Shown: piece by piece, positions 21,660 to 54,066 of the stretch
How the letters are laid out: each line of letters starts with the position of its first letter
Position numbering within the stretch: the stretch's first letter is position 1
NCBI GenBank assembly: GCA_949358305.1
Contig: OX442314.1
Coordinates: forward strand, 28,753,118-28,817,117
DNA: 64,000 nucleotides
Direction: 5' to 3'
DNA from: Strigamia acuminata
Taxonomy: Eukaryota > Arthropoda > Chilopoda > Geophilomorpha > Linotaeniidae
Made by a program: the position numbers and the translations under genes
The notes under the pieces: model-generated
Told to the model about the DNA's origin: nothing
The model's input: only the letters and a program-made list of their open reading frames with translations
Databases searched by the model: none

Positions 21660-21961
21660 TGTGGTGATTCAGCATCACCTGAAGAAGTAATTAGCGGTGA
21701 TTATTGTGTTACTAATACTCGCCACTAGAGCGCGCTAGAAATACCGACTAGACTGACTAGTCGCGTGTTTCTGCGAACCTGCATAATCAGAAGGATTTGC
21801 ATATGACGTCATTTCCGGTTAATATATATAGCCAATGCTTGACCGGAAACGACACTACAGTTACCACATTTCAGCAAGAGCACCATTTACCTCACCTTTC
21901 AGGCCGTTTCACGGATTGATCGAGGACCGGTGCCCGCTGACCATTTCAACTGTACAACAGC
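21660..21961 (+). repeat. G1 5' LTR, left part
   Basis: Matches 42219-42520. Begins TGTGGTGATT with a hairpin GGTGAT/ATCACC and holds further inverted repeats (GACTAG/CTAGTC, TTTCCGGT/ACCGGAAA). Interrupted at 21961 by element X. Confidence 0.9.
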
Positions 21962-29475: not shown

Positions 29476-31387
29476 TATGACGGTTTACAATGGCTATAAA
29501 TGCCTATTTTCTATCAAGAAAGCGCTGTTGCGCCAATATGATGGTATTTTTACAATATTCTGTGTAAAACTGATAAATGTCTAGAATAAAGTCATTTATG
29601 ATGTTTCAAATACAAAGATGTTCGTTTATTAAGAATAAACACTAATTTCCACATGATACTAAAGTATCACGGCATAATTACGAAGATTCGTCTGCTAAAA
29701 CCCGCATTTGTCAATGCTCCATATTGCCACTAGATGGCGCGATCGCAATTAGCGATAAATTCGAATACGAACTTGAAAACCTCATGATTAAATATAAACG
29801 TATATTTAATCAAGTGAATAAATTGTGTTAAATATTAATATAAATATATATTAAATATCTGACATTGTTAAATACAATGTAACTTCCATTTCTGCGGGAC
29901 AGAATGTTTAGCGATCAATCGGTCAACCGATCAATCTGATTGGTGGAACCCATTTCCGGTCCTGGGTATCCAGTTCCGGTTGTAACAAGGATTAGCATAA
30001 TTTGCATAAATGCTCCTCCGTATCCACTTCCGGTGATACGGGATTGGAGGGATTCGTGGAACCCATGTTCCAATTGGATGACTGGATTAATCCTTAAATC
30101 CAGTCAGGTTATATAAACCCAAACAACCGGCCATTCTGCAGCTCTGTTTGATTATTTCTGTTTGGTATTGTTACTTAAGAAGTATGATTCGTTGTTCACG
30201 TAAAAAACCTTTTGGTTCTTTGTTGATTTATTCGCAAAGAACCGTTGCATGATTCTACAGAATCATGCCACCGCCGGCAATTGAAGTCGAAGTGCTGGGA
30301 TTATTATGTTGCATAAATGTTACAGTCTACGGTTGCGACGCCGAAGGAGAACCCGCCGTTGTGCAATTCAGTATCCTCCGGACAGGACCAAGTTGTCTTT
30401 TTCGGTATGAACGTATTCCGTTACCACGAGTAGCATCGGTATTGTTGAGAATCGGTTCCTTCACCTGATGGTGCCAAAGCAGTCTGTTTTACAGTAACCA
30501 CGAGTAGCACCAAGTGTTTGGCAAGCTGATTCTCATGGTATTCGATGCCAAAGCAGTCGGTCTATTATTAGTACCGCGAGAGATAAAACTGCTGTGCGGA
30601 GCCGCGAGCTATCGACCCCTGTGTACGTGGTACCGTCAACCACTCGATGGACGACCGTGCTGCGACGCCGGGGACGCTTGATACCGTTCTGCATGGCAAG
30701 GCGTATATTCTAATCGATGGCAATTGTGTGTTGCGACGGGAAGCTTAATCTTCATTTTATTTATAACAGAAAAACTTAAACTCGACAACCAGTTGGACCA
30801 AAATCAAGTCAGAAGACTTAATCTCATATTGAACTCAATATAACCGATAAGTTGACGACAACTTATTCCCGAAATATCTAAATAAGAATTCACAACGATA
30901 TGAATTAAATATAATTCATAAGTGGAATATTGATAAGTAAATGAATACATTTACTTACACCAATATCCTCCCAAAGTTGTGGCGGTGCAGACAAAGTCAA
31001 CCGCAATGCTCAGATCATTCGATTTATCGACGTGCGATAGTTTACACAGCGAACCAAGGAAACCAGCGAAGCCGTATCGGACTCCAGGACACAGCCATCC
31101 GGCTTAAGATGACATCTATAATCAGGTCGAGCGATGGGGAAACCGCTCCCATATTCCAGACCCGTAGTGATATTATTCTAGGGCCAGTTGGCCAATTCTT
31201 TGTATAGTTTAATAGCTGATTTAACTTGCCAAATGTCGGCATTAGTCCTATGTATAATTTAGCTCATCCATATTGTTTGCCAACAATAAACTGTCTTGTA
31301 TTTATCTCGTATTGTATTCACTGTTTATTTATTGCGATCTCTTCCCGGTACCATTGTTAAATGGGAGTTGTGGTCGTCACCGTCACA
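29476..31387 (+). repeat. X 3' LTR
   Basis: 1912-bp copy of 21962-23873 with no difference noticed by eye. Confidence 0.9.
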
Positions 31388-31391
31388 CAGC

Positions 31392-31720
31392 CACATTTAT
31401 TTAGCGTAGCCAATCTACGCTAGAATAAATATTCGAACGATATTCGTTTAATTCGCACGAGAAAGCGAATTCTCGCGTGTTCATAATAACACGTGGAAAT
31501 ACCCTAGACAACAAACATAGACCACGCGTAGGACTAAACAATTGGATCCGCCATTGTTTAGCGGCAACTCGTATTCGCAGCCGAATCCGAGGACCAACAC
31601 AGGAAACATCTTGACTTATATTTGTATTAGTAAGCGTGTTTTAATAAAGCAGTATTTGAAATATATTGTATTCCCGAGTGTATTATTTATTATCTTTAAC
31701 CACAAAGTCGAATCACGACA
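31392..31720 (+). repeat. G1 5' LTR, right part
   Basis: Matches the end of the 3' LTR. Contains successive hairpins TAGCGTAG/CTACGCTA (31402-31422), AATTCGC/GCGAATT (31450-31471) and CGTGTT/AACACG (31476-31493). Ends CACGACA. Confidence 0.9.
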
Positions 31721-31812: not shown

Positions 31813-34657
31813 ATGACAAAAACTACCGCAGAAGATAGAAAAAGGCGTAACGACGAAAAGGATAGAAAAGAAGCCGAAGAAATCGAACGCCAAAAAGCGG
31901 AAGAAGCGAACCACGTGGAACCAGAAGTCGAGACTAACTCGACTAAAGTTTCAACGGAATCATCAAGTGAAAGCCTTCCCCTTGCAAGACAACTTCCGTT
32001 TACGGGAGGCGAATTCGAAGGATCAGGAAGCTCTCACGAAGAAAACGGACTAAATAAATCGTTCGAAAACCCTCGATTCGGATTGAAAAGCCCAAGACCA
32101 GTCGAAAAGGATCCCAGTGAAATGGATCTAATGACTCTTCTAAATAAAGCGGCAAACACAAGTGCCGCAATTATCAACGAGGCTGCCCGCGCAGACCAAG
32201 CAAGAACAGTCGCGTTAGAGAAGAAGAAAAACGAATTGATGGAAGATTTAGCCAGAGAGCATCGCGAGAAATTAGCTGCCATGGAACAGAGCTTGGCACA
32301 AGAACACCAAGCTAAACAAATGGCACTGGAGCGCGAGCTGGCTCGAGAATTGCTCGCGAAGCAGAAAATAATCGAACGAGAAATGGCAAAGGACTGCCAG
32401 ATCCGGCCGCCAAGCAACGGGTTAAGCCAGCATTCGGAGCCAAACTCCGTACAGAGCTCCCCAGAACGGTCTCACACAGCTAAGGAGCTGGTAGCCAAAG
32501 CAATAGAAGTAACTCGGGTAGCTTGCGCACACGGCATCGAGATCGACCAGGACAAGGATCCCTACGCAGAGCTAAGCCGAGTAATCGACCTAGTAAATCA
32601 GAGGACTGAAAAACGATCGGCAGATAACACGGCCAGACGCGGAGAGAAACGACGTCGGGTCGGAGCAGATCGACAACAGTCCGAGACAGGCGGCGAAGCA
32701 ACGTCAGACAGCGAAAGTATCGACTCTCAAGCATCTCACGGCAGTATCCGAGTCAACGGACTAGATAGCATCTTGAACGAATCGGACGAAGTCAAAGGAG
32801 AACTGTACGAGGCGTTTATACAGGATAGGAGGAATAATCAGGGCGCACAATCATGGGCAGTAAAAAACTCATTCGCAATGAAAACTGGCCAAACCAGTAA
32901 TAACAACCCAGGCGACCCTAACGCAGAACTAATCAGATGTATAAATCAGAAGAATCAAATACGCAACGAAGTAGGTCAAAATAAACTGGCCATGCCGACG
33001 CTCGAGGAGATTAACGCAGTTAAAAATCACCTCGAAAAGAAACACGCCGCCGAAGCGTATGCTGGGAGAGATTCCTACGTTTTTATCAAAAAAACGAACG
33101 AAGGCCTCACGGGGACCCGACTGGACGATCTGATACCGCCCGGAACAAAGTTGAGCCAAACCTCCGCTCCAGAGAAAGCGAACCCAGATAACTCAACCAT
33201 AGCGCAAGACCTCACGAATAACCCGAACACCGCGGGATCATCAGGGAAAACGTCGTTCCAACACAATCAGTTCGGACTGACGGGCAACGGTACGCATTAC
33301 CCAAGCCTCCCTTCCGACAATCCACGATCATCACCGCTGCTTAGTGAGACTGACTCGCTAAGCAACCAACTACGGACGATGAAAGACGAACTCCTTCAGG
33401 CCATGGACCAAAAACTTCAACAAAGCCGTGGCCAAGAGACCGAGGAGGACGATCGAAGCGAAGGATTGTTGAAACGTTACTCCGCAGACCGATGGCTGTA
33501 TTCTCGCAAGGATAACAACATCAAGTGGACGACCCTGAGACTAATTAAGTTCGACGGATCCTGGAACGCCGGCAACTTGTTTTTGGACGAAGTCGCCCTG
33601 ACGATTAATCGCTTAGGAGCGGAACCCGACGAAATGGTTGCACGCGGAATACCAGAAATGCTGATCAACCGGGCCCGAAACTGGTACGCTGATGTCCAAC
33701 CCCGAAACTGGGAAGATTTCGTCATAAAGTTCCACAATCAATATGGCGAGACGAGCCAAGAAATCCAGAAAAGAGTAAGCTCTATGAAGCAAGCTCCCGG
33801 GGAAACTCTGAGGGAATACGTACAACGAGCCGACAGCCTGTTCCGTGAAATGGACAAACCATTTGACCAACACGCTCAGAAAGCTCTCTTCGAACAAGGA
33901 CTAAACGAAACCGCAACCAAAGTCCTACGAGAAATGAACGCTCCTAAAGGGGATAATTTCAAAGCCATCCTAGCTTTCGTCGAGAAGAAACACACCGAAG
34001 TAAATGCTCGGTATAACGAAAATCTGACAAAAGAAGAGCGAGCTCTAGGAGTGGCCCGACAGCAACGAATACAGGAGCGCAGCATAGACTCCACTAAGCT
34101 GCTCCAATCGCGAAATTATCTAAACGGAAGTATAGAGCCACTCCCCTCAAAGAAAAACCAACAAGCTTCTAACCCTTTACCACCTCCGAATAAGGCCTAT
34201 CGCACGCAAACTAACGCCGCCGAGGAAAAGTCGGAAGACGAAGTAAGCGAAGACTGAGCAATTCTCGGAAAGCGATGAGGCTGACGAAGGTATCAACGAT
34301 GTGGTACACGCAAACATGGGGAAGGAACTGGCGCCCAGCTACCGACCTCAGATGAAGTCCAGAAAATCGGAACACCACAACCCGAAAACAGAGGCGACTT
34401 CCGAGAAGAAGGACTACCCCAAAAAACCTTTTGAGCGGGAGGGAAAGAAGAAAAGCCCTTGTAATTTCTGTAACGAAGACGGCCACTGGCGTCAGGCCTG
34501 CCCAAAACTGGCAAAGAAAAAAGCCGACGACAAGGCCGCAGAGCGTGAGGAGCTAGTGAAATTGCTCGCGAAGGAACAAGAAAAAATCTTGAAGGAACTC
34601 ACCGCCAAATTCGACAGTATGACAAAAAACTGGAACTCGCGGGCGGAACAAAAGTGA
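31813..34657 (+). CDS. gag: G1 Gag, with a one-base frame break before the zinc knuckle
   Basis: Structural polyprotein forming the particle. The first frame (31813-34257, 814 codons) has a charged start, a long heptad-rich helical segment (about residues 120-195), acidic and basic linkers, and a retrotransposon-gag capsid domain (about 560-760, e.g. IKFDGSWNAGNLFLDEVAL and WEDFVIKFHNQYGE). It stops at TGA 34255-34257. The next frame (+1), without a break in the acidic composition, carries the CCHC knuckle CNFCNEDGHWRQAC (about 34462-34503) and ends at TGA 34655-34657. In G2 capsid and knuckle are in one frame, so the break near 34250 is most likely a mutation; a second programmed shift is the alternative. 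Confidence 0.8.
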
Positions 34658-34674
34658 TTCCACATCCGCTCGCG
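34624..34674 (+). promoter_or_regulatory. G1 programmed -1 frameshift signal
   Basis: A_AAA_AAC (34624-34630) is in register with the gag knuckle frame, seven bases before a 10-bp stem (CGCGGGCGGA 34638-34647 with TCCGCTCGCG 34665-34674, one G-U pair). Slipping -1 leads directly into the pol frame, open from 34630, and bypasses the gag stop. This matches the textbook X_XXY_YYZ arrangement. Confidence 0.85.
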
Positions 34675-37600
34675 ATAACTTCGAAAACGATGGACCTTAC
34701 ACTGGTGGAAAAACAAATTAAAGAAATGAAAAAATTGTTGGAATTCTTCGAGGAAGCTGCCAACGAGGAAGTCACAACTCCAACCAAAAAACGGAAATTC
34801 GAAATTAGAGACGAAGACGGTATAGCCAACGCTTTCATGACTTTGCCGCTTGACCAAGGGGCCAATCCTCTTAAAAAGCGAATACTTCGTTGCAACCTAT
34901 CAACAGAAGCGAAGAGCGTACTGGCTAAAATACCAGTCTCTTTCGGCAAAAAGGTGTTAATGGGACTACTCGACTCGGGAGCGGATCAGTCGTTTATCTC
35001 CACCGACTTATTCGAATCACTCGAAGAAAAAATACAGAAAAAATTACGGGGAATGAACGAGAATATTCGAGTTCTTACAGCAGCGGGAGAAGTTAGAGCA
35101 GTGGGGACGTTATCAACCGATTTTGTATGGGAAGGAGGCACGATTAAGCATTTCTTCATCGTGTTACCAACCCGAGACACAATCCTGCTGATAGGAATGG
35201 ATTTGATGGAACGGATGAACATCCAGCCCAACCCAGTCACACGTTCGTGGAATTACATCGACAACCACGAGGACCCACGACTACCCATAATACCTCCGGA
35301 ACTCCTAGACAAAGCTAAGGACGACGAGGAATGGGGAGGAGGCGAAATTAAGAAGTTCATCCAAGACTATAATTTTAAGTCGTTTAATACTATCCTCCAA
35401 GAGGAGAATTTAATACATAATCTGGCCATGGACGCCAATCTTGGAGAAGAACAAACGAAACTCCTCGAGGAAATGCTCAAGAAGCACTCGAAGAACTTAA
35501 ATAAAGATCCAGGAAAGACTAGTTACGTAATGCACGAGATCGAATTGGTTACGGGAAAACCGGTGCGAGTACCTTTTAAAACTATGAATCCCCAAAAGAG
35601 ACATATCGTAAGAACGATGTGCAACGAGTTGCTCGAAAAAGGGATCGTGTCGCACGCCATCGGAGAATATGGAATGAGGATTGTCCTCGTCATGCGACCA
35701 GGCTCCGAACCGCGCCTCTGCATCGATTATAGACCTTTAAACGCCATAACCGTCATCGACCCCATCCAAATGCCGTCAATAGAAGCGATTCTACGGGAGC
35801 TCGCCCCATTTAACTGGGTCACGACCATGGACTTGTCCAAGGGTTACTGGCAGGTTGAATTGCGGGAAGAGGATAAAGAGAAAACAGCTTTTTGGGCACC
35901 ACAGGGTCGACTGATGTTTAATGTAATGCCCTTCGGGTTAGTAAACGCACCCGCCACCTTTCAAAAACTAATAGAAAAAGTTCTCGGCGATGCCTTACAC
36001 AAATACGCATGGGCTTACCTCGATGATATAGTCATAGTCTCCCAAACTTTTGAAGATCACCTGATACACGTGAATGACGTCATGGAGCGACTCACAAAAG
36101 CCGGTCTAAACATTCATCCAGGGAAAAGTAAATTTTGCCGCAAAGAATTGGCATTCCTGGGTTACACAGTCGGAACAGGTGGCCTATCCATCGACCCGAA
36201 AAAGACCCAGGCGATTAGCCAGTTCCCCGCCCCGGAAGATGTAAAAGGAGTCCAACGTTTCATGGGCATGGTGAATTTCTTCAATCGATTGCTCCCAAAT
36301 TTGGCAGACGTCGCGGCGCCCATCACAGATCTGTTACGCAACGATAAAGATTTCGAGTGGACTGACCACTGCGAAACATCGTTTAACAAAATAAAACAAA
36401 TGCTGATCGATGTAAAACGAATTCCCCTACCAGATCTTAATCGAGAATTCACTCTTCACACCGACGCCAGTCGAATTGGCCTAGGTGCTGCGTTGCTTCA
36501 AAAGCATGACATCGACGGAGTAGTGTTAGAGGTCCCGACGATGTTCATCAGCCGGAAATTACAAGCAGCCGAAAAGAATTATAATGCGACAGAGTTAGAA
36601 TGTCTAGCCGTCGTCTGGGCAATCCGAAAATTCAGACCATACCTGGAATTTACCAAGTTCAACGTACAAACTGACCACGAAGCACTAAAGTGGTTAATGG
36701 CGTTGAAGGAACCGTCCGGAAGAATGGCTCGCTGGCAGCTAGAATTAATGGCTTGTGACTTAATCATTGAATACCGACCCGGAAAATTCAACGTCGTAGC
36801 AGACGCCCTCTCACGAGCCCCAGCTTCAGACCCCGAAGACGAGACCGACTGCGGAGAGGACGACTCACGCCTCTTCTACTGTCCGAACCCCGTCCGAAAA
36901 TGGGAATTTAAAAAGCTAAACGAATTACCCAAGGAGAAACTCGAGTCAGGAGACCAGAATTATTACAGTTATTGGCTCCGAGCGTACCAGTCGGTCAAGG
37001 ACGCTCACCCAAATTATGAGCTAACAATAGAACCTCGAATCTCCGACAAGTACGTTCGAGCATTCGTCGCCCACGTAAGCAAGGGGACGAATAGCAAACC
37101 GCCCACCAGGGACGAATTAATAGCCGCCCAGATGGCAGACGACTTCTGTAAAACTTATCGAGACTTCATCACAGATAAAATATTTCCCGACGAGAATTTC
37201 GACGAAATCCAACGTGAAGAATTCGAAAGAGAAGCCTCCACGTACTTAATCGAGGATGGACTTCTACTAAAACACCACCCGAATTTCCGCGATGATCTGA
37301 CGGAGACAGGAACTTCGATGAAAGTCGTTATACCCAGGAGTCTGCTGACAAGGTTTCTGTGGATGGTCCACGGACACCCGCTCGCCGGACATTCTGGAGT
37401 GGCCAGAACGATCTACCGAGCAAATCAACTTTATTTCTGGCCAAAAATGACCCGAGATATTGTTCGTTTTATTCATCACTGCCCCAGATGCCAAGCGTGC
37501 AAGCCGAGGACGCCCAAGAACTACGAGAGAATCTCACTTGGCCCTTTCGCACCCTTCGATTGCTGGAGCGTGGATTTAATGGGCCCAAAACCCACGTCAT

Positions 37601-38736
37601 CCAATAAAAACAAATATATATTAGTAATCATGGATGTCGCGACTGGATGGCCCGAACTCTTTCCAATGGAGAGACCAACTAAGCAAAAAATCATTCGATG
37701 TTTGTACGAAGTGGCGCTTCATTTTGGATTCCCTCGAAAATTAATCTCCGATAATGGACCACAATTCGCGTCAAATTTGTATAAAGACTTCTGTAAAAAA
37801 TTCGACATCGAGACATCATATACATCAACCTATAATCCACGGGCCAATCCCGTCGAAAGGTTAAATCGCGATATAAAATATGCACTAGCAATTTTCACCG
37901 ATGTTCACTCCAGCTGGGACGAATATCTTCGTGAAATTGCCTTCAGCATCCGCACAACGATCTCAAGGAACCGCAAATTTTCTCCCGCGTTTCTAAACTT
38001 CGCTCGGGAACTCAGAGTACCCTGGGACCCACGAATACCGGAGGAAATACTGGAAATTGATCCTGAGAAGCCTCATATTTATGTCGACAGACTGGAGCAA
38101 ATAATTTCGGCCACTTATCAGCACATGATGTCACACATATTCGACATGAGAGATCGTATTAGCATTGCTGGAAAGGATCGGCCCTTCTGCAATTTTAAAG
38201 TCAATGACCTCGTCTGGAAAGACACACATATTCAGTCCAGCGCCGATAAGGGGATCCACGCAGGCTTAGCAGACAAACGCGACGGCCCGTACGTCATACT
38301 CGAAGCCCACGGCGGAAACGCTTTCAAGCTAAAAAGATTGGCAGATAACGTTAATTTTAGATCGATCCACGCCCGAGAATTAACTCCATACTTACCTGAG
38401 TTTCCTCAAGAGGCTTGGACGGAATATCAGACGAAACCAGCGAAAAATCCAATTATTCGCGACATGTTTTTAGATGAACAAACTGGCCCAACCAATTTAG
38501 TTCAAGATGAGTTACTCGAAGTGGCCGACGCCCCGGATGAGATTTCGGGGAGGGAGGAAATAGTCGCAGAATCTCCTAAAAAAGGAAAGCAATCAAACAA
38601 AAAGAAGACTACAGGAATCCCCAAACCTGATAAAATATACGGTATGCGCCGACACAAGCCAAACCCGTTCATAAAAGACGGGAAACTCGTCGGAAAACAA
38701 AAAGCGACTCCGGCCATTGTCTCAAACAATCGATAA
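34654..38736 (+). CDS. pol: G1 Pol: protease, reverse transcriptase, RNase H, integrase
   Basis: 1360 codons counted from 34654, made as a Gag-Pol fusion via the frameshift. Order: retropepsin with LLDSGADQSF (about 107), reverse transcriptase with YLDDIVIV (about 455), RNase H with TDASRIGLGAA (about 603), integrase HHCC zinc domain (HGHPLAGHSG ... CPRCQAC, about 903-950), DDE core with DLMGPKP (about 972), DNGPQF (about 1033) and NPVERLNRD (about 1067), and a C-terminal GPY-type module (DGPYVILEAHG, about 1211). All catalytic motifs are present and the frame is intact. The domain order (RT before IN, with a GPY module) is Ty3/gypsy. It is collinear with G2 Pol, with obvious similarity throughout. 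Confidence 0.95.
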   Translation: MIPHPLAITSKTMDLTLVEKQIKEMKKLLEFFEEAANEEVTTPTKKRKFEIRDEDGIANAFMTLPLDQGANPLKKRILRCNLSTEAKSVLAKIPVSFGKKVLMGLLDSGADQSFISTDLFESLEEKIQKKLRGMNENIRVLTAAGEVRAVGTLSTDFVWEGGTIKHFFIVLPTRDTILLIGMDLMERMNIQPNPVTRSWNYIDNHEDPRLPIIPPELLDKAKDDEEWGGGEIKKFIQDYNFKSFNTILQEENLIHNLAMDANLGEEQTKLLEEMLKKHSKNLNKDPGKTSYVMHEIELVTGKPVRVPFKTMNPQKRHIVRTMCNELLEKGIVSHAIGEYGMRIVLVMRPGSEPRLCIDYRPLNAITVIDPIQMPSIEAILRELAPFNWVTTMDLSKGYWQVELREEDKEKTAFWAPQGRLMFNVMPFGLVNAPATFQKLIEKVLGDALHKYAWAYLDDIVIVSQTFEDHLIHVNDVMERLTKAGLNIHPGKSKFCRKELAFLGYTVGTGGLSIDPKKTQAISQFPAPEDVKGVQRFMGMVNFFNRLLPNLADVAAPITDLLRNDKDFEWTDHCETSFNKIKQMLIDVKRIPLPDLNREFTLHTDASRIGLGAALLQKHDIDGVVLEVPTMFISRKLQAAEKNYNATELECLAVVWAIRKFRPYLEFTKFNVQTDHEALKWLMALKEPSGRMARWQLELMACDLIIEYRPGKFNVVADALSRAPASDPEDETDCGEDDSRLFYCPNPVRKWEFKKLNELPKEKLESGDQNYYSYWLRAYQSVKDAHPNYELTIEPRISDKYVRAFVAHVSKGTNSKPPTRDELIAAQMADDFCKTYRDFITDKIFPDENFDEIQREEFEREASTYLIEDGLLLKHHPNFRDDLTETGTSMKVVIPRSLLTRFLWMVHGHPLAGHSGVARTIYRANQLYFWPKMTRDIVRFIHHCPRCQACKPRTPKNYERISLGPFAPFDCWSVDLMGPKPTSSNKNKYILVIMDVATGWPELFPMERPTKQKIIRCLYEVALHFGFPRKLISDNGPQFASNLYKDFCKKFDIETSYTSTYNPRANPVERLNRDIKYALAIFTDVHSSWDEYLREIAFSIRTTISRNRKFSPAFLNFARELRVPWDPRIPEEILEIDPEKPHIYVDRLEQIISATYQHMMSHIFDMRDRISIAGKDRPFCNFKVNDLVWKDTHIQSSADKGIHAGLADKRDGPYVILEAHGGNAFKLKRLADNVNFRSIHARELTPYLPEFPQEAWTEYQTKPAKNPIIRDMFLDEQTGPTNLVQDELLEVADAPDEISGREEIVAESPKKGKQSNKKKTTGIPKPDKIYGMRRHKPNPFIKDGKLVGKQKATPAIVSNNR

Positions 38737-38914
38737 AAACAACCACAGGGGGGACACCTGTTACGTCCCACAATGCGTCTTAATTGGCCAAACCAATCAA
38801 AGATGACATGAGACTAATAGTTAACCTCTAACCCGACCCACACTTATCACTGTCATCTCCGACTAAGCAACGATCACCTCGAGACAGCCGTGAAATCAAA
38901 TTAGTTTCCGAAAA
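38737..38914 (+). other. G1 pol-ORF3 spacer with internal purine tract
   Basis: Ten bases after pol comes AGGGGGGA (38747-38754), then TGTTACGTCCC (38759). This looks like a polypurine tract abutting an LTR start, but no LTR follows. AATTAG before ORF3 (38899-38904) is a possible splice acceptor. Confidence 0.5.
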
Positions 38915-41900
38915 ATGAGAAATGATTGGAAGAAAGAAATTGAACGGGCCGTAAACAACGCTTCCGAGGATGACGATGAAGATCAAGTGGATTTGTTACA
39001 AATCATTGTAAACAACGAAGAGGGAAATTGGGACGAACCCAATGAACCCGATGTCCAACCCGACGTAAGTAAAAAATAGAAAAAATTCAATTATCGATAA
39101 TCAAAAATACGAAATAAGTTCGTGGACTGACCACAAACGAAGAAATAATTTAACTTTAAGTGACAAATTATCAAAATTAATCAAATACCGAAAGAAAAAT
39201 TAACTTCAAGACACGTGGTCGAAAAGCACATGGCCGACCATGACGCCATCTTGTGTTAGACGAAAGAATCTCTACAAAAATATGACAAATTAATCAACGA
39301 TCCTAATATATTTATTAATATTCTAATATTTAGGACGGATATCGCACTACGTGGGGGCAAATCGACCCGAAAAGAGTTTCCGCAGGCAGCTTATGGCGCG
39401 AAGTAATCCCCATACTGTTCCGACAAGCGCTCGAAGAAGCGGTCGACTTTGAACCATGGAAAATTCGCCTTTTATTGTCCCGTGCGATCAGCCGCTACTG
39501 GTCCAGCCAGCAAACGTTGATCCACTACATGCCGCGCCAATATCAAGCAGCTTTACGGGCAGTTATCTCGAGAAATATGGACCCGCCAGCGCCAATCCCG
39601 AATCCACTAATCCGAGCCGCCTTTCCTGACGACCAGCGAGGATGGGACGTTTACGAACAATGGCGCGACGCCGAAACAGATGAAGAAAAACACCAGATTC
39701 ATATGGCATATTACGAAGAAGTAAGGCGGACCGCACATGACGAGGTTTTCAATTATCTACAGCCGGACGGTTACTCGACCGAGGAAATCAGGTTTTGGCT
39801 CCTTCAGATCCGCGAAGACCGGCCCGACCGCCCAGATTGGAGACCGAGACACGGTTTCATCACCTCGCAACGAGCAATGCATCAATTGCATTTTTTGGGC
39901 TTCTTTGGTCGCAAACGCCAGAAGGCCGAGAAACGTCTCTCCAACGAGCACGACGAAGCAGGCTGCTCAGCGAAGAAACCATGCCTGGACAAGCCAAGCA
40001 CTTCCAGCAGCGCGCAGAATAAGAAACCCGCGACAGAGAAACGCCTGGCCAAACCAAGCGCTCTCTCTCGCCTGGGAAAGACGGAGATCCCACAAACATC
40101 GCGATTTCAATCCAGGGATGCCCCGTCAACCAGCCGAAGAAGAGAAAATGTACGCGAACGCCCCGACCGCCGAGAAGATCAACGCCGACGCGATAGGAAC
40201 CAAGAAAATTGGGACGATTATCGTAGAAATTACTTCCGACGGCGGGAAGAAAACAAGGAATCCTGGAATAGACACCGAGAGGAGTTCCTGCGCGAACGTG
40301 ATGAAAGAGCCCGACGTGAACGAGAGAACCTCCGTCTACAAGACGAACGAAGAAGGAGAGGATCGGAGAGTCGCGCACGTTCATGGAAAGCGTATCGTGA
40401 AGAAGAAATTCGACAGCGAGATAGGAGGCGCTGCGAAGATACACGATCAATTCGGGACAGTCCCGAACCAATGAAGATCGACGATGAGGTAATTATCGAC
40501 GAGGTCCCCGAGCAAAAGAAGATGTATACTCAGGCGGACCTCCTCGCGGTAGTTATGCAATACCAACAAATGCAGCCGAAACCAGTCTACCGCCCGACTC
40601 CCTCGACCGCCTCGAGTCTAGAGACGGCGCCAAGTGCTTTCATCAAGCCGGAACTCTCGCAGACGAGAAGCGTAACATCCAGCGTCAGCCTCCCAAGCGC
40701 CTTTCGCAAGAAAGTGATAATCGGCGCACCGACACTGAGTTCTGAAGAACAACTCAGACATCGAGAAGCTCGCTTTGGACCGGCCAAAGTCGAACCTCTC
40801 CCAACTATCCCCGAAGCCTCAACTTCAACGAGAACTCCAATCGTTTGGGACAAGCCCGAACCGGAAAAATCAAGACGTCTGGTCAGATCTGTGCCTCAGC
40901 CAACGACATCCACGGGACCCAATCCGATGTTGCCAGCCCCAGCAGTCATCCAAGCCTCGACTCCAATCAACCCTTCGGAGGTAACGTTGCAACAGTTTCT
41001 GGAGGTAACGACCGTGGAGCAAGCTAGAGCGCTTTTGTGCGAGATGGACTCCTACCAACAAAACGTGATCCAAAACGTCATCACGAACCTTCAGCGGATC
41101 TCGATTGAATATACGCAGAACAAAAATCGGGATCATCCAAATTGGAATACGAGGATCGTGGTTGCCATTACCGACTTGATGTCGATTTTGCTGGCCGCCG
41201 CCACCTTCCGAAACGCACGTGTTGCTGTGGCAGCCTGGATCGTGGTGGCCCACGAGGGTTTCCAAGTCCCGCCGGCTCTCGTAGACAGCTGGACCCGCCT
41301 AGTGCCCTCTGCGGCAGTAATTCGAGCCCAAATGGTGGCCCAGGACCCGGATCCAGAGACCTCCTATCAGAACGTTCGAGCGATCATCCAACACCCACGC
41401 CCGTCGTCTTCAGTGACCACACCCGTCGTGGAAACTCCGGCTCCCAGGGATCCGACGCCTCCTCCTCCGCCTCCGCCGAAGGAAAATAGACCTTCCGAAC
41501 CACTGGCCGAACCAGTCTCGCTCAAAAAGAAGGAAACAAAAGGAAAATTGCTCCGCCCAAAATCGAGCATGAAAGCTTCAAAGACGGCCGAACCTCAGAT
41601 CGCCGCCAGACTCCGGATGTACTTCCCGGGGTTGTCCTTGACGAAGGATACTGAAACAAAATTACTCCAAACCCCAGACCGTGGCTATTCTCTTTATGTC
41701 TGGATGAAGAACGCTATCGAAGCTGGAGCCGGAGGCGATCGCTTCATCCAGCATCAACGACTACTCCGAGCCCATCGCGCGCCAACCAGCATTGCCGAGG
41801 CCCAAAGAATCCATCACACCAATCAGGGAATGTCGCCCTTTTTGCCGCCAATTTGGGCCCACGAACGAACGGGGAATCCGCTGGAAGCGCCAGGTCACTT

Positions 41901-42024
41901 ACGTTTCTACTTGAACGAGAGCGAAGACCCCTCGGACTACTCTTCAAAATTGACCACATCTCCCAACCTGGACGAACCAAGTTCGGAAGATAAGCCAAGT
42001 TACGCCGATAACTTGAAGAAATAA
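38915..42024 (+). CDS. G1 ORF3: spliced accessory protein, RE/RD-rich, unknown function
   Basis: Two exons, 38915-39064 and 39334-42024, joined in phase 0, giving about 946 residues. Exon 1 (ATG 38915) is acidic. Exon 2 has AGSLWREVIP and an SRAISRYW motif (about 70-100), W-RP...SQRAMHQLHFLGFFG (about 220-245), an Arg-rich RE/RD/RR block (about 313-433) like those of SR-related proteins, Pro/Ser linkers, a helical core (about 605-710: EQARALLCEMDSYQ, ALVDSWTRLVP), poly-Pro (about 759) and a C-terminal domain (about 806-946: RLRMYFPG, IQHQRLLRAHRAPT, NESEDPSDYSS). The same motifs in the same order occur in G2 ORF3. There is no signal peptide, membrane segment or Env-like feature, although the gene is in the env position. 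An RNA-binding or RNA-export role is inferred from composition only. Confidence 0.75.
39065..39333 (+). other. Intron in G1 ORF3
   Basis: GTAAGT donor, TTCTAATATTTAG acceptor, 269 nt, phase 0. The reading frame meets TAG 12 bases into the intron, so unspliced RNA cannot encode the full protein. It contains AT-rich sequence only. Confidence 0.75.
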
Positions 42025-42218: not shown

Positions 42219-42849
42219 TGTGGTGATTCAGCATCACCTGAAGAAGTAATTAGCGGTGATTATTGTGTTACTAATACTCGCCACTAGAGCGCGCTAGAAA
42301 TACCGACTAGACTGACTAGTCGCGTGTTTCTGCGAACCTGCATAATCAGAAGGATTTGCATATGACGTCATTTCCGGTTAATATATATAGCCAATGCTTG
42401 ACCGGAAACGACACTACAGTTACCACATTTCAGCAAGAGCACCATTTACCTCACCTTTCAGGCCGTTTCACGGATTGATCGAGGACCGGTGCCCGCTGAC
42501 CATTTCAACTGTACAACAGCCACATTTATTTAGCGTAGCCAATCTACGCTAGAATAAATATTCGAACGATATTCGTTTAATTCGCACGAGAAAGCGAATT
42601 CTCGCGTGTTCATAATAACACGTGGAAATACCCTAGACAACAAACATAGACCACGCGTAGGACTAAACAATTGGATCCGCCATTGTTTAGCGGCAACTCG
42701 TATTCGCAGCCGAATCCGAGGACCAACACAGGAAACATCTTGACTTATATTTGTATTAGTAAGCGTGTTTTAATAAAGCAGTATTTGAAATATATTGTAT
42801 TCCCGAGTGTATTATTTATTATCTTTAACCACAAAGTCGAATCACGACA
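42219..42849 (+). repeat. G1 3' LTR
   Basis: 631 bp, TGTGGTGATT...CACGACA, uninterrupted; it provides the empty target site for element X at about 42521. Followed by duplication CAGT. Confidence 0.95.
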
Positions 42850-43235
42850 CAGTAGCTGGAAATTGTATGATGCTTACTATGAGTAATACAATGATTAAAT
42901 AACATTCTTAAGAATGTGATTGTGACATAGTTTCTACAGGCTTCTAGATTGAGTGCAAAATTACAGAGTTTACTCCATGAAAAAGAGTTAGTTGAACCTT
43001 GCAAAAACTGAAATAAAAGCATTTGCAAATTGAATTAAAGAAAAATGAAGGACGCGAAGCGTAACTTCCGTCGATCCATAAATAAGCCAAGTTTTAGGTG
43101 AGGGTTCGGAAACTGTAAAATTTGGAATAAGTGCCATGTGATGGGCGAAACTCAAAGTAAACAATACAGAAATGTGTTGCGATATTAAATAAATGATCGT
43201 TTATTTATATTAGCGATACACATTTTGTATCTATA

Positions 43236-45332: not shown

Positions 45333-46397
45333 TGTGGTGACCTCAAATATTCCTATTTGAGTGCGCACCATATTTCCAAATTGTCTTATAAACATATTCA
45401 ACAAGCTTATATGTTTTGTTTCAATGTAAATTGAAATAAAATATATATTAATCAAATATAAAACAAGACACAATATTACCCAAATAATATTGTGTTTTGC
45501 AGCAAGTTTTGGCCCAGCAACAGCGTCAACCAATCGCGCTGCAGCGTGCATTGCTTTGATGATGCTGCTAGGCGTGTGCCTGGGCGGAGCATCCCTTCCC
45601 CTCGCGCGTGCCCGGCTCAATTGTTGCACACGACCCGAAGGCGGCCGTGTGTGATCTTTGTGCAACTCGTCATCTGCGCAGCTTTTCTGAGCAGATTCAG
45701 GAGTAAGCCAAACGGTTTTGGCCCACTCTTCCCGCATTCTTGATTCTGCTTCCAAACCATTCACATCTGTGTCAAACTTATGCCAACCATTGCTAAGTGT
45801 GATCTGTGATATCTGGAAGAGTTGAGATTCATTGCTGGTCCGTGCCAACTGTACGGAATAGCGCCCTTCTGCTTGAATTACTACGCGTAATTTAAGCCAT
45901 TTCTGTGTGGGAATTGACATTGAGCTTGCTCTGTCAATTTGAAGGCTTTGTGTCGAGTTTAACTCCACAAAGCAATTTGTGTAAAGACCGATTGTTACGT
46001 CGAGCTTGCTCCGTAATAATCGAATCGCTGTGTGCAAGACGTATTCTCGTGTCGAGCGTGCTCCACGAGGATTTTTAGTATATTCAGCAACGTATTTTAG
46101 CGTCGAGTTTACTCCGCTAAAATCCCGCGCTCACACGACGCCGTCGACGCCATCTTGGAGCCAACGGTCAACTGTGAGTGTATATTTGAAGAAGAAGCCA
46201 GATCGACCCCAAACATTTTGAATAATACCTCCTTTGTATTTTGAACAATTAAAGCTATCTAATTTTTCCTTTACTCTGTGTAAAATCATTCCCCTAGACA
46301 AACATTTGGCCACAGAGTAGAAGTCCTGTACGGCATCTCTACGACGATTACTTGATAAGTCTCCTCGATTTATTAAGTAAAAACCCGGATCGCCGCA
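45333..46397 (+). repeat. G2 5' LTR
   Basis: TGTGGTGACC...GATCGCCGCA. Starts with hairpin CTCAAATA/TATTTGAG and carries the five-hairpin array at 45912-46122. A long antisense open frame (45273-46037) crosses it; I see no family in it and treat it as non-coding. Confidence 0.95.
45912..46122 (+). repeat. Five-hairpin array in the G2 LTR
   Basis: Hairpins at 45912-45939, 45946-45972, 45990-46021, 46046-46069 and 46095-46122. Each has the apex CGAG(C/T)(T/G)T..CTC (itself a small GAGC/GCTC-type stem), but the lower stems differ: AATTGAC/GTCAATT, CTTTGTG/CACAAAG, TTACG/CGTAA, CTCGTG/CACGAG, TTTTAGCG/CGCTAAAA. The array is repeated in the 3' LTR at about 57650-57860. Confidence 0.85.
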
Positions 46398-46399
46398 CT

Positions 46400-46489: not shown

Positions 46490-49387
46490 ATGGCGACGCC
46501 AATGCAAATTGTAAAACGACAGCGAGGTCGACCAAGCACTCAGAAACGAGCAGCGACGGTTTTGCCGGCTCTCGAGCCTGAAATGCTTGTGGAGAAAATT
46601 ATTTCCGAGGAAATAACACCAATTCCAGATCCGAAACAACTTAAGGATGCTGAAAATGAAGTTGCTCGAGCCCTGAGCGCATCGAGTGCGAGTTCTCACG
46701 AACAAGAACTCCCGCCACTTCCACTGGAGGAAGTGGAAAATACGTTACGTGAAATGGAAAGTGAATCGTCTCACGAATCACCTCCTCGCATGACCATGCT
46801 GGATGCTTTGAGAAATCAAGCACGCCAGGATGGCGCCCAAATAACGGACGACATGACGGTGGAAGAGATTCATCGCGCCATGATACGACTTCACACTGAC
46901 CGAGCCGTTTCAGATTTAAAATTTGAAGTGGAACGGAAAGAAGCAGAGCTTCAACAACAAAAAGCGGAGGTTGAGCTCCAACACATGGAACTCAATCGAC
47001 AAAATGAGGAATTTCTAGCCCAAAAAGCTAGAGAATACAGATTAAAAGGTGAAGTGGAAAATCTTTCTAAAATGAATGTTAGAAATGAACTTTCAATTCG
47101 CTCACACCAAGAGGCGCGAAAACAGCTCGAGCTTACCAAAAGTAAGCTGGAGCAGAAAAATAAAGAACTGATTGATTTGGCAGACCACTACCAACGCAAT
47201 CATAATCAACTAGTGAGATATGCTGCTGAATTAGACACACGTGCTAAAACACAGCGTACTCGCGAAAGTAATATAGCTAAGCGTGAAGACGAGATTTTCC
47301 ACTCGCTGGATCAACCCAGTACGAGCGGACAAGTCAAGTCTAGCGGCCCTGCTAAGCGATCACAACCAGAAGAATCGCAAAATCAAATAAATGAGAATGA
47401 AATTCTCCGAGCTGATTTGTTGCGCGCTCAAGAAGAGCTTGCAGAAATGAAAGATCGTTTGCAAGCAAGAAATTATACTGACCAATTGGTGCAACCAGAA
47501 ATGGCTGCGCCAACTGTCCCTATTTTGACTCCCGAAACAATAACAATTTCTGTTGTTTCAGAGTTAAGTAGCCAATCTGGATTATCAAGTGATGACGACC
47601 AACGTTCGCGTCGTCGCCATCGCTCAAAAAGAAAACGTCCTTCAGATTCTGAGGAACGGAGAGCTGATCGCAATCCGCTCCCTGGTAATCGAAACCCTAT
47701 TTTTCACAATAGTGACCGACTGTTGGGAATGGTAGACGATCGAAACAGACGACATGAAACAGGTATTCACGTTGCCCGAACGATACCACTGGCTCAGCAG
47801 CAAGATTCGTCGAAAAGAAGTCGACGAGACACCAATCCAGCACGCGAACCGCCGGACGGACATGAAAGCCCGCCAGGTGGGGGTCAGTATAGAAGAAATC
47901 CACCAGATGGAGGAAATCCAGATGGACACGGAGATGGACCACCTGGAGGTGGACGCCGACCGCCAGACGATGGTGACGGCGACCCACCCGACCCACCTGA
48001 AACGCCACATTTCAACACGCCTTCAAATTCACAATCTGATTCAAGGTCGGATTCTGATGTGAATGCGCAACAAGAACGCGATAATCGACATCGATCTCAT
48101 CGACGTCGACATCGAGGCCACTCTTCTCGGCGTAATACTCATTATTACACTGCTGAGGAAATAGATCGATTATTAGCTGATCGTCGATCTTCTGATCGAT
48201 CTGACGCTACTGCCGATAATGCTGACATTGCATTACGACAGAAAATTGCACAATACACTGCCAACAACTGGACTCACGATCTAGTTGATGAAAGAAATAT
48301 CAGATGGGATCACATTAAACCCGCTTTATTCGATGGAGAATGGGAAGCTGGATCCACTCTTTTAGATGAAGTTTTACGAATTTCAAGGTTGAATGGCATT
48401 GCATGTCACACTGCTTTGAAAAGAGTAGTACCAAAAGCTCTTATAGACCGAGCTGAGAAATGGTTTTATTCTAAACAATTTCAAAATTGGAACCACTTTG
48501 TAGAAGAATTCATGACTGAGTATGGAGAGTCAAGTGAAGACTTACTACAAATGTGGGATAATCTTTCTCAAAATAAAGGCGAAAGTCTTCGCTCTTATTT
48601 AAGAAGGACTGAGGATTTATTGGTCACTCTCCCTTATACGATGGGAGACGCAGCCATTGATCGTCAATTCCGTCGTGGATTGACAGATTATTCAAAAAAT
48701 GTTCTGCTTTCAGTACGAGCACCTTATCCGGGTGGTTTCGCTGAATTAGCCAAATTTATGCGAGCTAACCAGATAAGAATTGATGAGAATTATAAAGCTT
48801 ATCTACCAGCTGATGAAAAAGTTGCGTACGCTAAGCGACAGCAACGGAGAAAGGAGTTGGCTAAAGACACCCGTTTTGCTAACACCCCTCTTTTGCAACC
48901 CCCAAAACGAGGAGATTTTTTGGCAGAGACTGCCAAGGAATCGAAAAAGGGATCGGATGGAAATAATCCTCATCCAACCCCTAAAGCTCACTTAGCTGAA
49001 GTGACAGAAATGGAAACTGCTTCTGAACCAGAGAAATCTGACTCGGAACCAGAAAGTGAGGCAGCAGCTGCATTATTAGCCCGTAATAACGCAGTAGCAA
49101 GAAAATTTGGACCAAAAATGGCACCTAAAAACGTTACTTTTGGTTCACCAAAGACAGACGCGCTCAGTAGATCGAAGTCGCCGACCCCTAAAAAGGACGA
49201 AGCCAAACGTTCGAGTTCGCCTTCGCCAAAAGTCGCGAAATCGCCTGCTACTGACCCGTGTAATATTTGTAAAAAATTGGGACATTGGGCTAAAGAATGT
49301 CCTGACAGAAAATCGAGCAAAGACAAGATTATAGAAGAGTTCGAGAAATCGATGAAATCAATCGGCGAACTTCTAAAAAACTTGTAA
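46490..49387 (+). CDS. gag: G2 Gag with N-terminal AT-hook-like motif
   Basis: 965 residues in one frame from ATG 46490. Residues about 9-20 (KRQRGRPSTQKR) look like an AT-hook, unusual for Gag. A long coiled coil spans about 137-270, then an acidic and Gly/Pro/Asp-rich linker (DGHGDGPPGGGRRPPDDGDG), Arg/His/Ser-rich stretches, a capsid domain (about 595-785: WDHIKPALFDGEWEAGSTLL, WNHFVEEFMTEYGE), a Pro/Ser/Lys linker and a CCHC knuckle CNICKKLGHWAKEC (about 923-936). It ends at TAA 49385-49387, inside the frameshift signal. Longer than typical gypsy Gag (about 300-500) because of the N-terminal half. The capsid is clearly homologous to G1. Confidence 0.92.
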   Translation: MATPMQIVKRQRGRPSTQKRAATVLPALEPEMLVEKIISEEITPIPDPKQLKDAENEVARALSASSASSHEQELPPLPLEEVENTLREMESESSHESPPRMTMLDALRNQARQDGAQITDDMTVEEIHRAMIRLHTDRAVSDLKFEVERKEAELQQQKAEVELQHMELNRQNEEFLAQKAREYRLKGEVENLSKMNVRNELSIRSHQEARKQLELTKSKLEQKNKELIDLADHYQRNHNQLVRYAAELDTRAKTQRTRESNIAKREDEIFHSLDQPSTSGQVKSSGPAKRSQPEESQNQINENEILRADLLRAQEELAEMKDRLQARNYTDQLVQPEMAAPTVPILTPETITISVVSELSSQSGLSSDDDQRSRRRHRSKRKRPSDSEERRADRNPLPGNRNPIFHNSDRLLGMVDDRNRRHETGIHVARTIPLAQQQDSSKRSRRDTNPAREPPDGHESPPGGGQYRRNPPDGGNPDGHGDGPPGGGRRPPDDGDGDPPDPPETPHFNTPSNSQSDSRSDSDVNAQQERDNRHRSHRRRHRGHSSRRNTHYYTAEEIDRLLADRRSSDRSDATADNADIALRQKIAQYTANNWTHDLVDERNIRWDHIKPALFDGEWEAGSTLLDEVLRISRLNGIACHTALKRVVPKALIDRAEKWFYSKQFQNWNHFVEEFMTEYGESSEDLLQMWDNLSQNKGESLRSYLRRTEDLLVTLPYTMGDAAIDRQFRRGLTDYSKNVLLSVRAPYPGGFAELAKFMRANQIRIDENYKAYLPADEKVAYAKRQQRRKELAKDTRFANTPLLQPPKRGDFLAETAKESKKGSDGNNPHPTPKAHLAEVTEMETASEPEKSDSEPESEAAAALLARNNAVARKFGPKMAPKNVTFGSPKTDALSRSKSPTPKKDEAKRSSSPSPKVAKSPATDPCNICKKLGHWAKECPDRKSSKDKIIEEFEKSMKSIGELLKNL

Positions 49388-49420
49388 GCGCGCATCCAGA
49401 CGGTCTAGTGGATGCGACGC
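49375..49420 (+). promoter_or_regulatory. G2 programmed -1 frameshift signal
   Basis: A_AAA_AAC (49375-49381) in the gag frame, followed by the gag stop and a stem CGCATCCA (49391-49398) with TGGATGCG (49409-49416), extendable by GCG/CGC around one bulged base. The pol frame is open from 49381. It is the same heptamer as in G1, with a different stem sequence. Confidence 0.85.
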
Positions 49421-52400
49421 CTACCGCCTCGGAAAATGAACTAACACCATCTCAAATTTTAGATGAATTTTTAAATACACAGATTAAATTAGAATTAGAA
49501 AATAATTTAATATTTCCAAAAATTGATGTTTCCAGTTTAAGGCTCGTGCTGCAAAATGAAAACATCACTGAAGAATTTTTTAAAGAAAAAGTTCAACAAA
49601 TAAAAGTTGATTGGGAATCTAAAATAAAAGATGCTGTTATTTTACTAGATGAAAAAGCTAGGCCAACACCTGAAATTACTGATAGATCAGATAAAATTGA
49701 TTTACCTGGTCTTGACGAATGCATTGAAAAATTAATGGCTACAACGCTAGTCACTAATGATTTATTGGACGAATTACCATTGGATCCGCCGATAGAAATT
49801 AAGCCACCGCGACGTTTTAAATGCAAGTACGCGGACATACCAAACAGCAATGATTTGCCGACGATTCGATTGCAGACGGCAAACGGTATGATAACAGGGA
49901 TGTTAGACTCTGGAGCTAATCGAAGCTTCATGGCCTACTCCGTAGTAATTTCGCTGAAACTGGAAGATGAAATTCGACCAATTGGACCGGATGTGAGAGT
50001 TACGACTGCTTCAGAAGATGTAGTCCCTGAAGGAACTCTCCTACTTTCTTTTGCGTGGACACACGGGATGTTAAGTCATCCATTCATAATTTTAAGAAAT
50101 AAATATCCTATTATTTTATTAGGATGTGATTTCATGAATCGACTCAATATTCAATCGAATCCTAAGACCATGTCTTGGAATTTTGTCAAGTCTTTGAAAA
50201 AAGATTTACCTTTTGTTCCTCAAGCGATTCTTGATCGTTATCAAGAGTTCCTTGATCCACCCGAAGAAATCATGAAACGCGACTTTATTAAAGCAAATCA
50301 CATGAAAGCTGGTTCCGCCACTGCATGTCAAGCTAAAGTTGCCGATGAAGAAAATATAGTACAAAGACTTGTTAGCGACGCTAATTTCTCAATGGAAAAT
50401 AATTTAATGCTTGAAAAAGTATTAAAGAAACATGAAAAGATTTTATCACGCCGACCAGGTAGAACACACCTCGTTAGGCATGAAATTAAACTGGACACTA
50501 AAGTTCCAATTAGAGTTCCGTTTAAAAGCGTAAATCCACAGAAACGTGAAATTATCCGTCAAATCTGTCAAGATATGTTGGATAATGGGTACGTCGAACA
50601 AGCCACTGGAGACTATGGAATGCGAATAGTTCTAGTGATGCGTCCGGATTGTGATCCGAGACTCTGCATTGATTTTAGACCACTCAATGCACATACATTA
50701 TACGACCCTCCTCAAATGCCCAGCATTGAGGAAATCTTGCGAGAACTCGGAAGATTTGAATGGGTCACAACGATAGATTTGTCAAAAGGCTATTGGCAAA
50801 TAGAGGTTCATCCGAACGACCGTGCTAAAACTGCGTTTTGGAGTCCTTTGGGTCGACTACAGTTTCGAGTCATGCCCTTTGGCCTCATAAATGCGCCGTC
50901 AACTTTTCAAAAGTTGATAGAAAAAATTTTGGGGGATGCCTATCGAAAATTCGCATGGGCATACCTCGATGATATAATTATTATATCAAAAAATTTTGAA
51001 GAACACATGAGTCATCTAGAAGAAATTCTGAGTAAACTTGAAAATGCAAATCTTCATGTTCATCCAGAAAAATCGAAATTTGGCAGAAAAGAATTAACTT
51101 TCCTTGGTTACAAGTTAAGTGTTCAAGGAGTTAGTGTCGACCCTAAAAAAGTCGCCGCCATTAAAGAAATGCCAGCTCCTTCAAATTTGAAAGAGTTGCA
51201 AAGATTTTTGGGAATGGTGAACTTTTTTCACCGATTACTCAAGAATCTGGCAGTCATGACAGAACCTCTACGTCCTTTACTCAAAAAGGATGTGGAATTT
51301 ATTTGGTCAGAAATCCATCAAGAAGCTTTTGATCAAATAAAAGATGCTTTAACGAATGCAGAAACAATGGCCATGCCTGATTTGACAGAACCATTTATTG
51401 TGCATACCGACGCCAGCAGAAAAGGACTAGGCGCCGCGCTTATGCAAATGAGGGAAATTGATGATCAAAATATCGAAGTGCCTTGTGTTTATGCCAGCAG
51501 AAGTTTGCAACCTGCTGAGATAAATTACAGCGCCACAGAATTAGAATGCCTTGCGGTAATCTGGGCATTACGCAAATTCCGACATTACTTGGAATTTACA
51601 ACATTCATAGTAAGGACTGACCATCAAGCATTAAAATGGTTGATGCAGTTAGACGAACCTGCCGGAAGGCTAGCGCGTTGGCAAATGGAGCTAATGCGCT
51701 ACTCTTTCGAAATACAATATATTAAAGGTCCACTAAATGTTTTAGCGGATGCTTTATCCAGATCACCGATTGACAAACCGGAAAATCCTGAAGATGATGG
51801 AGATAATGATGAATTATTATCTTACTGTCCATCACCGCAACGAAATTGGAAAATGGGAAAATTTCATGAACTTCCTGTCTCCACGCTGGAGGAAAAGGAA
51901 GATCACGAATTCGTCAACTACTGGACTAAAATTTATGACCCCTCTGAGGAATCAGATGACGTCATAAAAGCGCAAATTTCAAGGAAATTTCAAGTTCCTT
52001 CGTCAAATGTTTTAATAAAAGCATTTGTCGCCAAAATTGTAGAACGTCTTGATTGTGAACCTCCCACAAGGGAAGACATAATTAAGGCCCAAAAAGAAGA
52101 TAAAGTTTGCCAATTAATGCGTAATTTTTTAAATTGTAATCAATTTCCGCCTGACGTCACAACGCGACTCCAGAGGAAACAATACAGAAAACACGCAACC
52201 ACCTTCTTAATTGAAGATGACTTATTAATGCAATTTCATCCCACAATGTCTGATGAATTGGGGGAGGATGGGAGAGCACTCAAAGTTTTTGTACCTCAGT
52301 CATTGAAGTATAAAATTATTTGGCTAATGCATGGCCACCCACTTTCTGGCCACCCAGGAATTGCAAGGACTCTTTATCGAGCACGCCGAATTTATACCTG

Positions 52401-53856: not shown

Positions 53857-54066
53857 CTTCCGGTATTTGAACTGATCACTTCGCGTCTGAGTTCACTTCG
53901 ATCTCACACGTGTGCTAAGTGCTCATCCCCAAAAAACCAAAAGCGAAACAACTGGATTATTTCAACGGGATTCTTCAATTGTAAGTAGTTTTTTCTTTGG
54001 AATTTTCCAAGGAAAAACTAATAAATTAATTTTCGTTTTTCTTTTCCATTTGGATTAGTCGTTCAA
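53857..54066 (+). other. G2 pol-ORF3 spacer with candidate 5' UTR intron
   Basis: GTAAGT at 53981 and a pyrimidine-rich acceptor ending TTAG at 54058 define a 78-nt candidate intron eight bases before the ORF3 ATG. It suggests that ORF3 mRNA has its own 5' exon, or that 54058 is the acceptor for a long subgenomic splice. Confidence 0.55.

Follow-up and report, generated by a model that had tools for sequence, protein, structure and literature searches.

Two long terminal repeat (LTR) retrotransposons, G1 and G2, which lie in a 64-kb stretch of the Strigamia acuminata genome (contig OX442314.1, positions 28,753,118 to 28,817,117; this whole stretch of 64,000 nucleotides is called the window), carry a further gene after pol, the place in which an open reading frame (ORF) is usually taken as env-like (PMC5408684, excerpt). 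This gene, ORF3, is a genuine third gene of the gypsy clade containing G1 and G2, and its product is not an envelope. Splicing of G2 ORF3 was shown at the DNA level through exact intron losses in genomic copies, while splicing of G1 ORF3 is inferred from homology and from non-triplet changes in intron length. A preliminary description, made from the window alone, had proposed a spliced two-exon gene in both elements. Its exon coordinates were right, and in G2 an additional intron was located in the leader (5' untranslated region). The parts of the gene are as follows (aa, amino acids).

38915..39064, + strand: G1 ORF3 exon 1, 50 aa, acidic; starts with ATG and is open up to a GTAAGT donor
39065..39333, + strand: G1 ORF3 intron, 269 nt, phase 0, GT...AG
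39334..42024, + strand: G1 ORF3 exon 2, 896 aa; N domain, Arg-rich linker, helical core, poly-Pro, C domain
53981..54058, + strand: G2 leader (5' untranslated region) intron, 78 nt, GTAAGT...TTAG; removed in three genomic places
54067..54327, + strand: G2 ORF3 first coding exon, 87 aa, acidic
54328..54678, + strand: G2 ORF3 main intron, 351 nt, phase 0; exactly lost in genomic copies
54679..56898, + strand: G2 ORF3 last exon, 739 aa; N domain, RS-rich linker, helical core, poly-Pro, C domain

All coding exons of ORF3 lay 3' of the pol stop, and the joined proteins were 946 residues (G1) and 826 residues (G2) long. The phase-0 introns had been placed at an equivalent position in the two genes, and this was confirmed, the aligned positions being no more than one residue apart. 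The first in-frame Met of the last exon was residue 66 in G1 and residue 159 in G2, and the conserved N domain began at residue 4-5. The conserved domain thus starts ahead of the first Met in the last exon, and the upstream exon is therefore required.

Splice junctions were searched for in the source genome (237.5 Mb in 157 contigs). When the two exon ends were fused into a 22-base search pattern and no more than one mismatch was allowed, the main intron of G2 was exactly absent (54327|54679) at eight places, four of them exact and four with one mismatch; the reversed pattern, used as a control, had no genomic match. The intron-bearing G2 donor border was found at 72 genomic places with the same tolerance. 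The leader intron (53981-54058) was forecast from its splice sites, to within one base at its start, and its junction was then found at three genomic places, two of them exact and one with two mismatches adjoining the junction. Seven intron-loss loci (L055-L061) were read, a set that holds six of the eight places of main-intron loss. The main intron alone was lost in L055-L058, both introns were lost in L059 and L060, and the leader intron alone was lost in L061. Upstream DNA was colinear with the end of pol in all seven loci; these loci therefore go back to genome-length RNA that underwent splicing, then reverse transcription and insertion. The frame was followed in four loci: in L055, L057 and L058 it was open across the junction and as far as the locus extended (592 aa), and in L056 it met a stop after 293 aa. 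The spliced copies were scattered over a tree of 19 copies, on which parsimony without regain gave at least three losses of the leader intron and at least four of the main intron; some nodes had poor support, and part of the scatter could have come instead from recombination or gene conversion. Some copies were thus reverse-transcribed after splicing, so that the genome itself keeps a record of splicing, and the use of splice sites can be followed at the DNA level. In the doubly spliced G2 copy L060 (G000:C1:46099813), about 520 bases were missing within the last exon (55223 to 55747), a gap that either a deletion or additional splicing could have produced.

No spliced G1 junction turned up in the genome, against 108 intron-bearing borders. 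The intron-loss counts of 0/108 for G1 and 8/80 for G2 gave a Fisher p of 0.0009, with copies treated as independent, which is not fully true. The G1 intron showed seven lengths from 266 to 282 nt, with non-triplet steps, in 28 of the 30 fetched copies; exon 1 varied by one codon, and one G1 last exon by three codons. The intron border was retained at 72 places for G2 and at 108 for G1, so unspliced RNA was the source of most integrated copies.

Alignment scores indicated that the ORF3 proteins of G1 and G2 are homologous; the evidence was clear for the N and C domains and weak for the core. The whole joined proteins scored 121 (shuffled, 50.8 ± 7.0), a value reached by none of 300 shuffles, which bears out the homology proposed earlier and rules out chance similarity. 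The N domains scored 99 (shuffled, 37.0 ± 6.7; 0/500) and the C domains 88 (31.6 ± 5.8; 0/500). The core pair scored 56 (33.6 ± 6.2), reached by 4/500 shuffles; taken alone it was no better than the off-diagonal pair of G1 core and G2 C domain, which scored 44, likewise with 4/500. With BLASTP, the C-terminal part alone aligned, with 24% identity and an E value of 5e-4 (0.006 with other settings). Identity between the last exons was about 25% in the alignment, far below that of pol (48%).

A GC-rich frame of 664 aa at 574-2568, which had no Pfam match, contained a helical-looking stretch that by eye vaguely resembled the ORF3 core. Its score was reached by 0/300 shuffles with G1 and by 9/300 with G2; the alignment with G1 ran mostly through Arg-rich and Pro-rich stretches, and the frame was not counted as a third homologue.

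The linker of G1 ORF3 contained 39 Arg in residues 301-420 (18 in 301-360 and 21 in 361-420), and that of G2 contained 15 RS/SR pairs in residues 241-360 (8 in 241-300 and 7 in 301-360). A poly-proline stretch lay between the core and the C domain in both. Hydropathy showed no signal peptide or hydrophobic N terminus in either protein, as had been described. The accompanying statement that no membrane helix is present proved only roughly true: the best 19-residue mean hydropathy was 1.84 in G1 (joined residue 658) and 1.22 in G2. The hydrophobic stretch of G1 has no counterpart in G2, and it is therefore not a shared membrane anchor. Searches with both last exons, at E values up to 1, returned no Pfam family (Env, Gag or other) and no match among PDB sequences. 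Envelope identity was rejected on hydropathy, the non-hydrophobic N terminus and these profile searches, in agreement with the preliminary description. A two-sequence AlphaFold model of the core, a prediction called for earlier, gave a helical bundle (predicted local distance difference test score, pLDDT, 70.7; predicted template modelling score, pTM, 0.57), and comparison with PDB and BFVD gave generic matches and no significant structural match. The model of the whole G2 last exon was unusable (pLDDT 33).

In viral contigs, 2 and 11 stretches fitted a pattern, and none was confirmed as a relative. Four spots downstream of other reverse transcriptase (RT) matches (L039-L042), read by eye only, had nothing ORF3-like among their open frames. 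No published description matching ORF3 was found in a search whose scope left out Repbase and most subscription journals. The protein is without match in Pfam or among PDB sequences, and beyond these libraries it is only presumed to be novel. Downstream of the RT match in L041, a 462-aa frame (L041:482-1867; G000:C1:62614800-62618600) resembled SUMO proteases. Its best PDB sequence was SENP1 (E 2e-4, residues 270-444), and Pfam gave none. An Ulp1-type protease at this place was unexpected, and its membership in the same element is putative.

The substitution pattern in other genomic copies indicated that the codons of ORF3 are under purifying selection in both families. Among the best-scoring matches in the genome, the G1 last exon was open over its full length in 51 of 51, and the G2 last exon was without internal stop in 54 of 61. 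Exon 1, donor and acceptor were intact in 28/30 fetched G1 copies; in the other two (L023 and L036), the upstream coding exon was lost and the last exon was still open. Between G1 subfamilies, nonsynonymous divergence (dN) was 0.017-0.034 and synonymous divergence (dS) 0.15-0.30, with dN/dS of about 0.09-0.14 (L027, out of register, was left out). The ratio was 0.145 for the closer pair L023/L024 and 0.20 for L022, which showed ten differences from the G1 copy of the window. The G2 copy of the window gave dN/dS of 0.10-0.14 with seven other copies; no value came from four more, three of which had a stop while the fourth was out of register. Slow change of the G1 intron (1.9% between two subfamilies vs dS of 0.15) was considered as a sign of constraint and was rejected because the neighbouring pol and exon parts were equally close, the subfamilies being mosaic. 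An ORF after pol that lacks envelope features has thus been kept by selection in two families whose pol proteins are 48% identical.

Two motifs were shared by the DNA upstream of both genes, around the end of pol. These motifs were picked after inspection of the sequence, and they suggest a candidate internal promoter of ORF3.

38789..38881, + strand: candidate internal promoter of G1 ORF3, with CAAACCAATCAAA (38789) and GATCACCTCG (38872)
53797..53883, + strand: candidate internal promoter of G2 ORF3, with CAAACCAATCAAA (53797), TGACGTCA (53823) and GATCACTTCG (53874)

On both strands of the window, CAAACCAATCAAA had only two sites (38789 and 53797), and so had GATCACYTCG (38872 and 53874); the distance between them was 83 bases in G1 and 77 bases in G2. 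The G2 site of CAAACCAATCAAA was still within the pol frame. When one mismatch was allowed, the 12-base core AAACCAATCAAA had two further sites in the window. CAAACCAATCAAA was present in 28/30 G1 and 10/12 G2 copies, and the GATCACYTCG motif in 27/30 and 12/12, respectively. The local DNA alignment of the two upstream regions was moderately unusual, being reached by 10/1000 shuffles (15/1000 with other gap costs). The octamer TGACGTCA occurred in the G2 upstream region and in the G1 LTR (42363), there near a TATATATA stretch; it was common in the window, with 10 copies vs 1.2 expected. A YY1-like core, CGCCATCT, lay inside both main introns, as GACGCCATCTTG at 39242 in G1 and on the minus strand at 54453 in G2; it was also enriched in the window (9 vs 1.1 expected). 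The names CCAAT box, CRE (cAMP response element) and YY1, and the CCAAT-box-like spacing, are assignments that we presume for these motifs. The spliced copies came from genome-length RNA and therefore have no bearing, for or against, on an internal promoter.

As to function, we tentatively favour, at somewhat less than an even chance, a nuclear protein that regulates the RNA of its own element and is itself made from spliced RNA, after the manner of Rev and CERV. Rev is a regulator that itself comes from spliced RNA and acts for unspliced RNA. CERV, of the Ty3/gypsy-related element Cer1 of C. elegans, is a nuclear protein made from spliced RNA, and export of unspliced Cer1 RNA depends on it (PMC10309623, excerpt). 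In such a scheme, the ORF3 mRNA would be spliced and translated into a protein of about 830-950 residues, which would enter the nucleus and bind the RNA of the element through its basic linker. It would then favour unspliced genomic RNA, by holding back splicing, by carrying the RNA out of the nucleus, or both; part of the ORF3 supply may come from the internal promoter at the end of pol. The splice sites of G2 are functional, yet most integrated copies keep the introns, and this was counted for an RNA regulator, together with the Arg-rich or RS-rich linker, the low dN/dS and the precedent of CERV. Either unspliced RNA has some advantage when RNA is packaged, or the introns are just spliced inefficiently.

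Several points weigh against such a regulator. Intron retention could be the result of inefficient splicing with no role of ORF3, and retention was leaky, with spliced DNA at 8/80 G2 places. No recognised RNA-binding domain was found in ORF3 with Pfam. Structural proteins and DNA-binding proteins can likewise have basic or RS-rich stretches, and the motifs upstream could act in splicing rather than as promoter elements. CERV, moreover, is unlike ORF3 in position and make-up. A more elaborate form of the regulator is doubtful, if still worth stating: a large and independently promoted spliced regulator gene in the place of env, with three exons in G2, whose own introns in the genomic RNA would act as a switch, the spliced RNA giving protein and the protein holding RNA made afterwards in its unspliced form, ready to be packaged. 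Such a gene would amount to a feedback loop of the Rev type that arose independently of lentiviruses and of CERV.

The main rival, which we consider unlikely, is that ORF3 is a DNA-binding transactivator similar to Tas of foamy viruses, expressed early from the internal promoter and switching on the LTR. It would account for CAAACCAATCAAA and GATCACYTCG standing 83 and 77 bases apart upstream of both genes and nowhere else in the window, for TGACGTCA at the G2 site and in the G1 LTR near TATATATA, and for the acidic first coding exons, and the internal promoter of foamy viruses does drive Tas (PMC3185757, excerpt). However, Pfam found no DNA-binding domain in ORF3, and the promoter is a candidate only, with an upstream alignment reached by 10 and 15 of 1000 shuffles and a 12-base core that has two further window sites with one mismatch. 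A role as a virion or assembly protein, that is, a second structural protein aiding packaging or cell-to-cell passage without an envelope, would agree with the size of ORF3, its place after pol, the core predicted to be all-helical (pLDDT 70.7) and the poly-proline stretch in both proteins, a kind of site bound by adaptor proteins; we hold this to be quite unlikely. It is very unlikely that ORF3 counters host silencing (Piwi-interacting RNA, small interfering RNA or a restriction factor), as Bet of foamy viruses does against APOBEC3 (PMC3185757, excerpt): the identity of about 25% between the ORF3 proteins vs 48% for pol is the pattern of an arms-race accessory protein, but purifying selection on ORF3 within each family was strong.

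Two further explanations find little room beside the favoured RNA regulator. A degenerate or unusual envelope fusogen would suit the env position and the one hydrophobic 19-mer of G1 (mean 1.84), but it is highly improbable in view of the long, highly charged stretches, the non-hydrophobic N terminus, the loss of the hydrophobic stretch in G2 (1.22) and the lack of any Pfam match at E values up to 1 or PDB sequence match. That the intron is not spliced, and that exon 2 alone is the gene or a chance open frame, can be practically discounted. Exon 2 is open on its own and no spliced G1 copy was found, but for G2 this explanation is refuted by the exact intron losses, and the low dN/dS and the absence of a Met before residue 66 (G1) or 159 (G2) of an exon whose N domain starts at 4-5 also speak against it.

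By gene order and LTR structure, G1 and G2 are young Ty3/gypsy-type (Metaviridae-type) LTR retrotransposons. G1 spans 21660-42849, its 5' LTR being interrupted by another LTR element nested at 21962-31386, and G2 spans 45333-58135. The features outside ORF3 are listed below.

21660..21961, + strand: G1 5' LTR, first part; 100% identity with 42219-42520; begins TGTGG
31387..31720, + strand: G1 5' LTR, second part; 31387-31721 has 100% identity with 42516-42850
31813..34257, + strand: G1 gag; PF03732, E 1.8e-10; zinc knuckle in a different frame
34654..38736, + strand: G1 pol; Pfam matches to protease, RT, RNase H and integrase
42219..42849, + strand: G1 3' LTR; identity with the split 5' LTR parts
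45333..46397, + strand: G2 5' LTR; 99.9% identity with 57071-58135; AGTA on either side
46490..49387, + strand: G2 gag with zinc knuckle; PF03732, E 2.9e-9; PF00098, E 2.1e-4
49408..53856, + strand: G2 pol; Pfam matches; 48% identity with G1 pol
57071..58135, + strand: G2 3' LTR; 99.9% identity with the G2 5' LTR

Pfam matches placed protease, RT, RNase H and integrase in this order, the gypsy order, in both pol genes, and the pol proteins shared 48% identity. The LTRs started with TG and ended with CA, and paired LTRs were 100% (G1) and 99.9% (G2) identical. Target duplications flanked both elements, the 4-bp CAGT in G1 (21656-21659 and 42850-42853) and AGTA in G2. A primer-binding-site-like stretch, TGGGGGCCTGTCCGGGAT, was found at 31723, just 3' of the G1 5' LTR. 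The gag frame of G1 stopped at 34257, the zinc-knuckle part ran on in a second frame, and pol was back in the first (34244-34660); capsid, nucleocapsid and pol of G1 would seem to require two frame changes, judged from the copy in the window.

The nested element (21962-31386) had identical LTRs of 1.9 kb and an open frame of 473 aa (27459-28880) without convincing Pfam match. The insertion sites of G1 and G2 were apparently parts of one older repeat (matches to 9987-11523), and AGTAGC was among the bases at the right ends of both elements (42850 and 58136). A target preference is possible, from two cases only.

Non-envelope ORFs after pol in rotifers (PMC5408684, excerpt) and accessory ORFs in MDG1-group elements (PMC11952523, excerpt) are already known. 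The ORF3 of LTR elements of bdelloid rotifers is, like that of G1 and G2, an extra ORF downstream of pol and often non-envelope; the types described are paramyxovirus-type F, GDSL, DEDDy, TM and coiled-coil (PMC5408684, excerpt). Pfam searches with the G1 and G2 last exons (E up to 1) showed no GDSL, DEDDy or paramyxovirus-type F domain. The sORF1 and sORF2 of Drosophila MDG1-group elements are likewise accessory non-Env genes of Ty3/gypsy elements; however, they are small, and sORF2 has a membrane span (PMC11952523, excerpt), whereas ORF3 has 946 or 826 residues and no shared span. Foamy viruses have a promoter that lies towards the 3' end, ahead of an accessory gene (PMC3185757, excerpt), for which ORF3 has a candidate only; they are retroviruses that, unlike G1 and G2, also have a real Env (PMC3185757, excerpt). 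Like ORF3, CERV is a non-Env protein translated from spliced RNA; its element is gypsy-related and retains introns in the genomic RNA, and the protein has no obvious relatives outside its host group (PMC10309623, excerpt). Exons 1-3 of CERV and their frame are common with gag, and the protein has H, M and G domains (PMC10309623, excerpt), whereas ORF3 has its own coding exons after pol and another layout; the two are set apart here by description, not by sequence comparison. If the regulatory role is true, ORF3 would be an independent solution to the retroviral problem of exporting and packaging intron-containing RNA.
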